Made by a program: the position numbers and the translations under genes | Virus record (IMG/VR): IMGVR_UViG_3300042691_016996 | Coordinates: 1-32,332 of that record | Direction: 5' to 3' (one strand) | DNA: 32,332 nt | From: a virus | Notes under the pieces: model-generated | What the model saw: the letters and a program-made list of their open reading frames with translations, nothing else | Database searches by the model: none | Told to the model about the DNA's origin: nothing | In this document: positions 26,177 to 29,663 of the stretch, piece after piece | Layout: each line of letters begins with the position of its first letter | Position numbering within the stretch: position 1 is the stretch's first letter

Positions 26177-26375
26177 AATGTCTTTTGTGGAATCGTGTTG
26201 CAATGTGGCTATAGGCTATTTGATAGCCGTTGCCGCGCAATATGCGATTTTTCCGTTGTTCGATATTCATATCGCACATAGCGAACATTTCGCCATTGCT
26301 GCGCTTTTCACGGTTGTTAGCCTAATCCGCAGCTACGCATTGCGGCGTTTGTTCAATAGGTGGCATCAAAAATAA
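26163..26375 (+). CDS. Small membrane protein, DUF7220-like (70 aa)
   Basis: The ATG at 26163 has GAGGTGA 4 bases upstream. The pattern MSFVESCCNVAIGYLIAVAA, then FPLFDIHIAHSEHFAIAALF and SLIRSYALRRLFNRW, is a conserved two-membrane-segment phage protein (DUF7220-like) with basic C-terminus. Its function is unknown. It ends the small-gene cluster; an AT-rich stretch and a promoter follow. Confidence 0.74.
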   Translation: MQSRKMSFVESCCNVAIGYLIAVAAQYAIFPLFDIHIAHSEHFAIAALFTVVSLIRSYALRRLFNRWHQK

Positions 26376-26397: not shown

Positions 26398-26425
26398 TTG
26401 AAAATGTAATTTTTTTTTGTATAGT
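26398..26425 (+). promoter_or_regulatory. Promoter for the helicase-methyltransferase pair
   Basis: TTGAAA at 26398-26403 and TATAGT at 26420-26425 are separated by 16 bases within an AT-rich stretch. Predicted transcription starts near 26432, which is the first base of the first hairpin in the leader. Confidence 0.6.
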
Positions 26426-26431
26426 AGTAAA

Positions 26432-26508
26432 ACCTACATTGCGGGTAGGTAGACCTCTTAAATGTGTATCCATGCCGCAATCGTGGGTACACTTTTAAGG
26501 GGTTTTTT
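26432..26508 (+). ncRNA. Structured leader: two hairpins with complementary loops
   Basis: Hairpin 1 is ACCTAC (26432-26437), loop ATTGCGG (26438-26444), GTAGGT (26445-26450). Hairpin 2 is an 18-pair stem (26454-26471 with 26485-26502, one U-U mismatch) with a 13-base loop. That loop contains CCGCAAT (26475-26481), the exact complement of the whole loop of hairpin 1, so a 7-bp kissing interaction is predicted. The stem ends in AAGGGG (26497-26502), then six T, then the ATG of the helicase. The stem therefore hides the ribosome binding site and also has the form of an intrinsic terminator. Likely a cis-regulatory RNA or attenuator; no known family was recognised. Confidence 0.72.
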
Positions 26509-27891
26509 ATGTCTGATTATCAGGCGTTTCTAAAGCAAAAATCAATAATTCCTCCGCTAACTGGTTTAGCTGTTGTTCCAAAGTTAAATTCCAACTTATT
26601 TGATTATCAGGACGATATAGTTAGCTGGGCATGCAAACGTGGGCGCGCAGCGTTATTTGCAGGAACCGGTCTCGGCAAATCTCTTATGGAACTTTCATGG
26701 GCAAATGCGCTTTATGAGGCCACAGGTCAGAGAACGATTATATTTACACCTCTTGCCGTAGCCTCACAAATGCTTAAAGAGTCCAAAAAATTCGGAATAG
26801 ACGCAGCGCATGTATCGCACCACCAAGATAGTAACAAGCCAATACTTATCACGAATTATCAAAAACTAGATCATTTTGATTTATCTATGTTTGGTGGCGT
26901 TGTTTTGGATGAAAGCAGTATCTTAAAAAACGAAAGCGGCCACTATCGCACCAGATTAATTAATGAATGCAAGCGCGTTCCATTTAGGCTGGCTGCAACT
27001 GCCACGCCTGCACCAAATGACTATATGGAACTTGGAAATCACGCTGAATTTAACAGCATAATGTCTTACACGGACATGTTATCAACATTTTTCGTGCATG
27101 ATGCTTCTAATACGCAAGAGTGGAGGTTAAAGGGTCACGCGGAAGATGAATTTTGGAAATGGATGGCCAGCTGGTCTGTAATGTTAAGAAGCCCATCTGA
27201 TTTGGGTTATGACGGCAGCAAGCATATTTTGCCTAAGCTTCATCAGATTCAACACACCGTCAAGGCCGAATATAAAAGTAACCTGGATACTGGTTTCCTG
27301 TTTCCGCTTGAGGCGCAAAGCATGGGCGAAAGGTTGCGCGCTAGAAAAGCTACCATTAATGAAAGAGTAAAAAAAGCATCTGAATTGGCAAACGACAGTA
27401 AAGATTGCTGGGTTGTGTGGTGCAATCTAAATGATGAGAGTTCACTTTTAGCTGATAAAATTGATGGAGCGGTTGAAATAACCGGAAGCATGCCAGAGGA
27501 TAAAAAGATAAAAATTTTAGATGATTTTGCGGCTGGCAATATCAGGGCTTTAATAAGCAAGCCTTCGCTAACTGGATTTGGTTTAAACTGGCAGCATTGT
27601 AATAATACCGTTTTCGTAGGGCTAAATGATAGTTTTGAACAAATATATCAAGCGGTCAGAAGATTTTGGCGATTTGGCCAGAAAAACGAAGTATATGCAC
27701 ATTTCATCGCAAGCGAGCTTGAGGGTGCAGTAGTAGCAAACATAAAAAGAAAAGAACAGCAGGCTGAACATATGGCCAATCAAATGATTAGGCACATGGC
27801 TGACTTAACCGCTGAAACAATACGCGGCGCGGTGCGTGAAACCGCTTCTTACATACCAACCCAAAAAATGGAGATTCCAACATGGCTATAA
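26509..27891 (+). CDS. SNF2/DEAD-like helicase
   Basis: 460 residues from the ATG at 26509. Residues 52-58 (GTGLGKS) are Walker A, 134-137 (DESS, in VVLDESSILKN) the DExx box, and TATPAPN (~164-170) motif III. Later come the C-terminal lobe with ISKPSLTGFGLNWQHCNN and QAVRRFWRFGQKNEVY (motif VI). This is the superfamily 2 form seen in phage SNF2-like helicases. It acts on double-stranded DNA, as remodeller or translocase. It is co-transcribed with a DNA methyltransferase (10-base overlap). Base composition looks more AT-rich than the late genes. Confidence 0.85.
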   Translation: MSDYQAFLKQKSIIPPLTGLAVVPKLNSNLFDYQDDIVSWACKRGRAALFAGTGLGKSLMELSWANALYEATGQRTIIFTPLAVASQMLKESKKFGIDAAHVSHHQDSNKPILITNYQKLDHFDLSMFGGVVLDESSILKNESGHYRTRLINECKRVPFRLAATATPAPNDYMELGNHAEFNSIMSYTDMLSTFFVHDASNTQEWRLKGHAEDEFWKWMASWSVMLRSPSDLGYDGSKHILPKLHQIQHTVKAEYKSNLDTGFLFPLEAQSMGERLRARKATINERVKKASELANDSKDCWVVWCNLNDESSLLADKIDGAVEITGSMPEDKKIKILDDFAAGNIRALISKPSLTGFGLNWQHCNNTVFVGLNDSFEQIYQAVRRFWRFGQKNEVYAHFIASELEGAVVANIKRKEQQAEHMANQMIRHMADLTAETIRGAVRETASYIPTQKMEIPTWL

Positions 27892-28838
27892 ATGCAATAA
27901 ATCAGGTTATTAATGAACAATACGCAATTTATGAAGGTGACTCTTGCGAATTAATGCAGGGCATTTCAGGAAATAGCATTGGGTATTCTTTGCATAGCCC
28001 TCCATTTGAGGGGTTGTATAAATTCTCTAATTCTGACCGCGATGTCAGTAATAACGAGGGTGAAGGATTTTGGAAGCACTATGGATTTATAATAAAGGAA
28101 CTATTGAGAATTACTAAGCCCGGAAGATTGGCAAGTGTGCATGTTATGCAGCTTCCAACCAGTAAAACAAAGCATGGCTTTATTGGAATGAGAGATTTTC
28201 GAGGCGAAGTTGTAAAAGCATTTCAAGATGCAGGCTGGCACTTTGCCAGCGAGGTTTGCATATGGAAAGACCCAGTTGTTGCTCAACAGCGTACAAAATC
28301 AATACGCTTGCTGCATAAGCAAGTAACAAAGGATTCTACGATAAGCGGACAAGGCCTTGCTGACTACATCTTAACGTTTCGCAAGCCGGGAATAAATGAC
28401 GAGCCATGCGATGGAATGTTCGAGTTTTATATTGGCGAAGGAGATGCTCCAGAACCAATAGAATCCAGACTTGGAAGGCAATCTGAAGATGAAGCAAAGA
28501 AGTGGTATAGCATAGAGGTCTGGCAAAGATATGCCTCTCCGGTTTGGATGGACATAAATCAAAGTCGCACACTTCAATATCGTGGCGCTAGAGATGATAA
28601 AGATGAACAGCACATAAGCCCATTACAATTAGACGTTATTGAGCGCTGCATTCATTTATGGAGCAATCCCGGTGATGTTGTGTTTACTCCATTTTTGGGC
28701 ATTGGAAGTGAGGTTTATGGTGCGGTTGAACTAGGTAGAAAGGGTATTGGAATTGAGCTTAAACCTAGTTATTTCAAGCAAGCAGTAAAAAATTTAGAAG
28801 CGTTGCAAAATTCGAATCAATGCAAACTTGCAGTTTAA
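27882..28838 (+). CDS. DNA methyltransferase, N6-adenine/N4-cytosine type
   Basis: 318 residues. The catalytic motif IV is SPPF (39-42, in LHSPPFEGLY), placed before the AdoMet-binding part (FTPFLGIGSEVYGAVELGRK, C-terminal), so the motif order is that of beta-class enzymes. HISPLQLDVIERCIHLWSNP precedes it. The reaction is methyl transfer from S-adenosylmethionine to adenine or cytosine amino groups. It probably protects phage DNA from host restriction, possibly with the helicase upstream. No cognate nuclease gene is visible. The recognition site cannot be read from sequence. Confidence 0.85.
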   Translation: MAINAINQVINEQYAIYEGDSCELMQGISGNSIGYSLHSPPFEGLYKFSNSDRDVSNNEGEGFWKHYGFIIKELLRITKPGRLASVHVMQLPTSKTKHGFIGMRDFRGEVVKAFQDAGWHFASEVCIWKDPVVAQQRTKSIRLLHKQVTKDSTISGQGLADYILTFRKPGINDEPCDGMFEFYIGEGDAPEPIESRLGRQSEDEAKKWYSIEVWQRYASPVWMDINQSRTLQYRGARDDKDEQHISPLQLDVIERCIHLWSNPGDVVFTPFLGIGSEVYGAVELGRKGIGIELKPSYFKQAVKNLEALQNSNQCKLAV

Positions 28839-28905: not shown

Positions 28906-28982
28906 ACGAGCCTGCGCCTTCTACCCTCGCCGGAATGGACAGGTGCCCCAAAATAAACAAGGCGAGGATAGGGGCGAGGAAT
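28906..28982 (+). promoter_or_regulatory. Leader with competing pairings around the ribosome binding site
   Basis: CCTCGCC (28925-28931) can pair with either of two GGCGAGG copies, at 28961-28967 or at 28973-28979. The second copy is the ribosome binding region of the ATG at 28983. GCCCC (28945-28949) can also pair with GGGGC (28971-28975). The two states would leave the site free or closed. The region 28839-28982 holds no gene. Confidence 0.4.
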
Positions 28983-29663
28983 ATGGCAAGAGCCAGAAAC
29001 ATTAAACCATCTTTTTTTACCAATGATAGACTCTCAGAATGTCATCCGCTTGCACGTTTGCTTTTTATTGGGCTTTGGACAATAGCAGATCGTGAAGGTA
29101 GGCTAGAGGAGCGACCTAAAAAAATCAAGGCCGAGATTTTGCCATATGATGATTGCGACTGTGAATCGCTTTTAAAACAACTTCACGCATATGGTTTTAT
29201 ACAAAGGTACGAAGTTGATAATATAAAATATATTCAGATAGTTAACTTCACAAAACACCAGAACCCACACATAAAAGAGCAGGCTAGCACCATACCAGCA
29301 CCAGACTTGCACAGTGCTAGCATGGAACTTGCCCGGCCTCTTACTGATTCCCTCTTACTGATTCCTGATTCCCCCTTATTGATTCCTGAATCTATTGATA
29401 GCGCGCGCGATAAATCGCACGCTTCAAAACCGAAAAAAAGAGCTACACGATTGCCAGAAGATTGGGGACTACCTCAAGAATGGGGGGAATGGGCAGAAAC
29501 GCAGGGACTAAGCGGCGATGAAATCCTGAGACAAGCGGAAAAGTTCAAAGACCGCCAGCAATCAAGGGGAGCCGCATATTCAGACTGGCAGGCAACTTGG
29601 AGAAATTGGATTAGAAACCACATCGAGTGGAGCGCAAAAAATGTACAAGCCCAAAAAAGATAA
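28983..29663 (+). CDS. Phage replisome organiser-like protein
   Basis: 226 residues from the ATG at 28983 (GAGG 3 bases upstream). The N-terminal block MARARNIKPSFFTNDRLSEC, then LARLLFIGLWTIADREGRLE, RPKKIKAEILPYDDCDCESL and IQIVNFTKHQNPHIKE, is highly characteristic of a common phage replication protein with a winged-helix fold. The C-terminal half has a linker and LPEDWGLPQEWGEW followed by AYSDWQATWRNWIRNH, as in DnaT-like phage initiators. It likely binds the origin or loads a helicase. The 3' end overlaps the next gene by 23 bases. Confidence 0.78.
   Translation: MARARNIKPSFFTNDRLSECHPLARLLFIGLWTIADREGRLEERPKKIKAEILPYDDCDCESLLKQLHAYGFIQRYEVDNIKYIQIVNFTKHQNPHIKEQASTIPAPDLHSASMELARPLTDSLLLIPDSPLLIPESIDSARDKSHASKPKKRATRLPEDWGLPQEWGEWAETQGLSGDEILRQAEKFKDRQQSRGAAYSDWQATWRNWIRNHIEWSAKNVQAQKR

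Follow-up and report, generated by a model that had tools for sequence, protein, structure and literature searches.

A helicase gene in a 32,332-nt viral sequence (IMG/VR record IMGVR_UViG_3300042691_016996; hereafter the window, meaning this whole stretch) is preceded by two adjacent hairpins whose loops are complementary to each other. We asked whether this complementarity is accidental, what RNA structures the leader can adopt and how they might control the genes that follow. The features of the locus are as follows.

26398..26425, plus strand: predicted sigma70-type promoter TTGAAA-16-TATAGT (consensus scan, 10/12)
26432..26450, plus strand: hairpin 1, predicted 5' end of the transcript, 6 bp (fold, -6.0 kcal/mol)
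26432..26444, plus strand: 5' strand of the alternative helix, ACCUACAUUGCGG (minimum free energy state in transcripts exposed to ~26480-26496)
26451..26505, plus strand: hairpin 2, 23-pair terminator stem with a U.U mismatch and a 7-nt loop (fold, -29.2 kcal/mol)
26475..26488, plus strand: 3' strand of the alternative helix, CCGCAAU-(C bulge)-GUGGGU (hairpin 2 loop and part of the upper 3' arm)
26497..26502, plus strand: Shine-Dalgarno-like AAGGGG inside hairpin 2 (opening cost 13.4 kcal/mol)
26503..26508, plus strand: terminator U-tract (T6, from sequence)
26509..27891, plus strand: SNF2/DEAD-type helicase gene, 460 aa, the putatively controlled gene (phrog_62, 2e-67; PF00271; PF04851)
27882..28838, plus strand: N6/N4 DNA methyltransferase gene of the helicase operon (PF01555, 3e-18)
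28935..29663, plus strand: gene for a replication initiation protein, later in the helicase operon (phrog_16167, 2e-55)

The leader combines a terminator-like hairpin with a buried ribosome site

The promoter noted in the initial sequence-only reading is present, and its consensus would place the transcript start at ~26432. Such sites were seen 21 times in 12 kb against 22 expected by chance, and the promoter match is therefore weak taken alone. From this predicted start the leader is 77 nt long. The minimum free energy of the leader fold is -44.2 kcal/mol (z = -6.7). Hairpin 1 pairs 26432-26437 with 26445-26450 around the loop ATTGCGG (26438-26444), and hairpin 2 follows with no spacer nucleotide. 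Both hairpins, the AAGGGG, the T6 and the ATG at 26509, directly after T6, are present as that reading had described, but the second stem has 23 pairs (12 + 11, interrupted by a single U.U mismatch at 26463/26493) instead of 18. Its loop, CCGCAAT (26475-26481), is the exact complement of the first, as had been noticed.

Hairpin 2 had also been taken for a terminator that traps the ribosome site, and this description agrees with the analysis: AAGGGG is paired within the stem, U6 follows the 23-pair hairpin, and the terminator score was positive. Opening the helicase ribosome site costs more than at any other of the 31 starts examined in the window. Temperature sensing, one of the roles suggested earlier, was rejected since the computed mean unpaired probability of the ribosome site is 0.001 at 42 °C and 0.018 at 70 °C; a site that stays less than 2% unpaired at 70 °C does not behave as an RNA thermometer.

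Complementary loops are not expected by chance and extend into an alternative helix

When both strands of the window were scanned for neighboring 6-bp hairpins with complementary 7-nt loops, this pair was the only one found. No such pair occurred in 25 shuffles of the window, and Markov genomes (n = 1942) contained 0.0036 pairs per strand. The loop match thus appears as improbable by accident as was first supposed. The further proposal that the loops are spaced for intramolecular kissing fared less well: their complementarity stands, but the spacing is doubtful. On geometric grounds, the two loops should lie apart in cis once hairpin 2 is complete, one being 6 bp and the other 23 bp up its stem. 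Because the stems abut without a spacer, contact between the loops in cis is not expected in that state.

The complementarity continues from the loops into the stems, so that 26432-26444 can pair with 26475-26488 in a helix of 13 pairs with one bulge. When the loops match, randomized stems with an identical composition of pairs extend this far with p = 0.015. In computed folding of the growing transcript, this alternative helix is favored while the exposed end lies at ~26480-26496, after which hairpin 1 plus hairpin 2 take over. The energy of the alternative fold minus that of the terminator fold is -9.6 kcal/mol at 26488, ~0 at 26497 and +14.1 kcal/mol at full length. The leader shows two general features of an attenuator, a terminator-like leader hairpin with a U-tract (23 pairs and U6) and an exclusive upstream helix that forms before the terminator is completed (crossover at ~26497). 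In light of this modeling, a role within the 13-pair alternative helix describes the window loops better than a static kissing complex does.

The base pairs themselves are consistent with two folds. The wobbles U26469-G26487 and U26473-G26483 of hairpin 2 have Watson-Crick partners in the alternative helix, and the wobble U26435-G26485 of the alternative helix has Watson-Crick partners in hairpin 2, an exchange expected if a single strand serves two folds. The fold energy is -36.4 kcal/mol for the plus strand and -22.3 kcal/mol for the minus strand; since the plus strand folds far better, it is the RNA and not a DNA symmetry that is kept.

The window leader has no detectable sequence homologue

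Rfam 15, including its riboswitches, C4 and int-alpA families, gave no match to the window leader at the gathering score and nothing relevant at E<=5, in agreement with the earlier statement that no known riboswitch class could be recognized. No homologous leader sequence was found by blastn against phage and plasmid sequences or by exact patterns in viral and IMG/VR sequences. Twenty pattern matches in bacterial genomes were discarded as homologues because they are unlike the leader in fold, and a number of these matches seem to represent a single Burkholderiales sequence. Among the leaders inspected from ten phage records, mostly of cultured phages, there was no clear member. As the window copy has no sequence homologue, covariation with this copy itself cannot be seen.

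The sequence-only reading had named relatives carrying this helicase without the loops and stems as evidence against it, and its nearest relatives are indeed of this kind. The leaders of the four closest helicases (L002, 81% identity; L085 and L003, 75%; L086, 66%) are unrelated to the window leader, lack such a hairpin and have ribosome sites that are cheap to open. The element is therefore not ancestral to the helicase clade. The ribosome-site context TTTTAAGGGGATTTTATG / TTTTAGGGGTATTTATG at L323:2980-3001 and L002:4980-4998 matches the window, with the hairpin absent there. This shared context suggests that the hairpin was added onto an older ribosome site.

The same design recurs with unrelated sequences upstream of this helicase family

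Beyond the nearest relatives the design is found again: seven leaders before this helicase family, the window included, show it in unrelated sequences. An automatic promoter plus terminator filter retained 7 of 262 leaders. Complementarity was counted as exact matches between the first ~27 nt of the transcript and the terminator interior. At least 7 exactly complementary nucleotides were present in 5/7 filtered leaders compared to 2.4% of swapped pairs (p = 1.5e-7), with a filter that was designed partly with some members already in view. The exact complement is 15 nt in L372, 10 nt in L363 (UGCGGCGAGG:CCUCGCCGCA), 8 nt in L393, where there are two 8-nt blocks, and 7 nt in L242/L044 and in the window. 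The leaders of L296 (UUUGCAU:AUGCAAA) and L382 (9 nt) likewise fit the design. In L044, a promoter is followed by a 5' mini-hairpin carrying UUGGCAG, and CUGCCAA lies unpaired inside a large terminator upstream of the helicase. The 5' strand begins on the predicted transcription start or within ~10 nt of it. A cruder control, in which complementarity with any hairpin was counted, gave a weak enrichment (7/38 vs 8.6% at >=8 nt).

The early preference for the alternative helix is also shared. In 6/7 helicase leaders, the window included, and thus in 5/6 of the others, it remains the computed minimum free energy fold up to a point 1-16 nt short of the U-tract. As a separate observation, Pseudomonas phage vB_PaeP-F1Pa (L450:398-484) has a near-perfect, GC-rich inverted repeat of ~24 bp upstream of its helicase, without a U-tract.

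A family of leader RNAs shows covariation of the pairing rule

Promoter-terminator-start units were then scanned across all analyzed loci. Among non-helicase units, 19/66 had a complement of at least 7 nt compared to 6.1% of swapped pairs, a count that is slightly inflated because the set includes the helicase leaders L044 and L371 (the same as L363) and one L005 near-duplicate. Six leaders could be aligned as one RNA family, here called class I: L044, two copies in L296, L414, L394 and L438. These RNAs are 103-119 nt long, and a 7-pair helix joins the 5' loop to the stretch between the two inner hairpins of the terminator. The pairing sequences differ among members, as in UUGGUCG:CGACCAA (L414), UUGGCGG:CCGCCAA (L394), UUGGCCG:CGGCCAA (L438, found by pattern) and UUGGUAU:AUACCAA (the second L296 copy, upstream of an HNH gene). 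This second copy (L296:3279-3383) is distinct in sequence and lies between helicase and methyltransferase, adjoining the inserted HNH gene (PF13392).

The 7-pair helix is 100% paired, 4 of its 7 pairs are changed on both sides, its covariation score was reached by none of 500 shuffles, and the pairing signal collapsed in slid controls. Covariation was also seen in 16/30 pairs of the nested structure. When this nested structure alone, with the loop-loop helix left out, was used to build a covariance model, the model gave one new match, L391 764-868 (E = 2.7e-6), which carries UUGCAGG:CCUGCAA (769-775, 822-828); we regard this helix as a fair out-of-sample success for the pairing rule. The Infernal search and covariation test that had been proposed for related leaders thus gave a positive answer, in distant relatives of the design. 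The class I model did not match the window at E<=0.5. The window leader does have the class I trait of a 7-nt complement between a 5' hairpin loop and unpaired bases of the terminator ahead of a helicase (ATTGCGG:CCGCAAT), and it is tied to the other leaders by design, not by homology.

The genes downstream of class I leaders encode DUF1376 (L414), Phg_2220_C (L394), helicases and one HNH protein, that is, replication-type phage proteins except for HNH; the gene after the L391 match is DUF1376-like by eye. A gene start in the same direction lies within ~45 nt past the U-tract in the members examined. Rfam searches of the member loci at gathering scores left these RNAs unmatched. In class I, the helix and the terminator may be present together, in the form of a kissing pseudoknot, instead of competing, as a linker of ~11 nt could span the stem. 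A further pair of leaders, L058 and L064, has UGCACCAACC:GGUUGGUGCA in common, plus a second, diverged helix. At L058:2829-2937 and L064:1602-1708 the sequence of this second helix differs yet still pairs, and the alternative fold wins at full length too.

Comparison with known systems and alternative explanations

In PyrR- and riboswitch-type attenuators, the anti-antiterminator, antiterminator and terminator are mutually exclusive. In the window leader, hairpin 1, the alternative helix and hairpin 2 likewise exclude one another and follow in that sequence, but the leader is only 77 nt long and has no ligand site, known binding protein or Rfam match. In pT181, the terminator stem holds the ribosome site and a pre-emptor pairs with the 5' arm of the terminator (PMC5703833). 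The resemblance to repC/repR of pT181/pIP501 lies in a leader terminator with a ribosome site before a replication gene, prevented by an upstream strand (PMC5703833); in the window, 26497-26502 are paired within the terminator stem at the opening cost given above. Those are plasmid systems, whereas this leader is from a phage, and their pre-emptor is internal and directed to the 5' arm, whereas the window strand is the 5' end of the transcript, with its partners in the loop and the upper part of the 3' arm. They are also defined by an antisense RNA, which is unsupported here. A countertranscript that blocks the 5' strand as it blocks the pre-emptor would follow similar logic (PMC5703833), and one weak promoter-like site on the minus strand, TTGATT-18-GATAAT (26545-26516), could start an RNA at ~26509, opposite the helicase ATG and antisense to the whole leader. 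Shuffling the window region produced an equal or better promoter site in 30% of cases, and an antisense promoter is not consistent among other members; we consider antisense-driven attenuation improbable.

Leader-derived RNAs of ~70-77 nt with complementarity within their own operon are known from phages P4 (cI) and P1 (c4), where they act in trans after processing and control the replication or lytic operon via termination or translation. The window could by analogy encode a free-standing 77-nt RNA, transcribed from the promoter at 26398, ending at the U-tract and acting in trans through its loops, its partners being a second copy, the leader of its own mRNA or further RNAs. Its own promoter, paired 5' end and strong terminator would suit such an RNA, as would the loops being the only unpaired bases; class I RNAs are similar in size with the same parts, and complementary loops would permit dimers in trans. 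Against it stand the closely following gene starts of the members examined, the window ribosome site within the stem, the different pairing sequences of the two L296 copies, which suit cis action, and the lack of an Rfam C4 match. Overall, a trans-acting small RNA seems unlikely, if somewhat less so than an antisense switch. Int-alpA RNA (RF02996) is also a phage small RNA with a terminal U-tract, but it has a three-way junction and conserved CUAG/GAAAA, and the window and class I members do not match it. One int-alpA RNA occurs directly upstream of the helicase (L391:2415-2480), in the same phage that has a class I leader before the DUF1376-like gene.

Two adjacent hairpins of ~70-77 nt right behind a phage promoter also recall putL of phage HK022 (PMC9378689), in which the folded 5' end of the RNA attaches to the elongating polymerase and prevents termination farther downstream. 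By inspection against the published features, stem I of putRNA is long and contains an RNA triplex, with an A9-G35 pair forming a platform at the stem junction; putRNA binds polymerase through this stem and is not itself a terminator (PMC9378689). Hairpin 1, by contrast, is a plain 19-nt, 6-bp hairpin that abuts hairpin 2, and hairpin 2 itself precedes a U-tract. We accordingly rejected the window leader as a put RNA and give a put-like action very little credence. The least probable account is an ordinary terminator next to operator dyads whose centers match by accident. In its favor, the sequence of hairpin 1 forms a perfect dyad of 19 bp adjoining the start site, and ATTGCGG occurs again at 26339. 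Against it, the expected number of loop-complementary pairs is only 0.0036 per strand, both the G-U pairs and the poor folding of the minus strand indicate RNA, and the design is found repeatedly, with covariation. The window shows no excess of ATTGCGG, and CCGCA...TGCGG dyads close to further helicases appear to be accidental; neither was retained as an operator. The copy of ATTGCGG at 26339, the third in this neighborhood, forms part of a small dyad, CCGCAGCTACGCATTGCGG, where the DUF7220 gene ends (26327-26345).

A proposed model for attenuation by the transcript's own 5' end

We think it probable that the leader is a cis-acting attenuator of transcription, and also of translation, for a phage replication operon, with the 5' end of the transcript as the antiterminator strand. 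The attenuator role suggested at the outset is supported by the terminator, the rival helix and the energy crossover, with the loops recast as an antiterminator instead of a static kissing pair. In this model, where the start site, termination and switching in vivo are what we infer, transcription would begin at ~26432 and hairpin 1 would fold first, acting as an anti-antiterminator. Once 26475-26488 emerges, pairing would nucleate at the loops, with the opening 13 nt of the transcript changing partner to give the helix 26432-26444/26475-26488. This antiterminator helix would block the upper half of the terminator while the polymerase passes over the U-tract. Release of the last arm (26494-26505) could let the RNA rearrange into hairpin 1 plus hairpin 2, in which state transcription would stop and/or AAGGGG would be buried, leaving readthrough RNA poorly translated.

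The two folds would be near-isoenergetic when exposure stops about a dozen nucleotides short of the end of the U-tract, approximately when the polymerase is on the U-tract. Output would then depend on the availability of the 5' strand during this short passage, and helicase-methyltransferase expression could be set by whatever blocks or frees that strand, be it a protein, an antisense RNA, polymerase speed or start-site choice.

Unrelated phages share this design although their sequences differ, each still matched to its partner, so that it seems to be a genuine, undescribed switch for phage replication genes. More tentatively, and with somewhat less than even confidence, we propose that it is a widespread control of phage replication modules, in which every transcript reserves its extreme 5' end as the antiterminator strand of a terminator located just ahead of a replication gene; pairing sequences would evolve separately in each copy, and the window would be one of many independent versions. 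Private pairing sequences would allow several copies to operate in one phage, as in L296, without cross-talk. The pairing rule is simple and covarying, so that 7-nt swaps suffice to probe it. If the proposal is true, these leaders would constitute a new RNA family absent from Rfam and a compact, apparently protein-free layer of control over phage replication operons, and their natural orthogonal versions would be useful in the design of synthetic attenuators.
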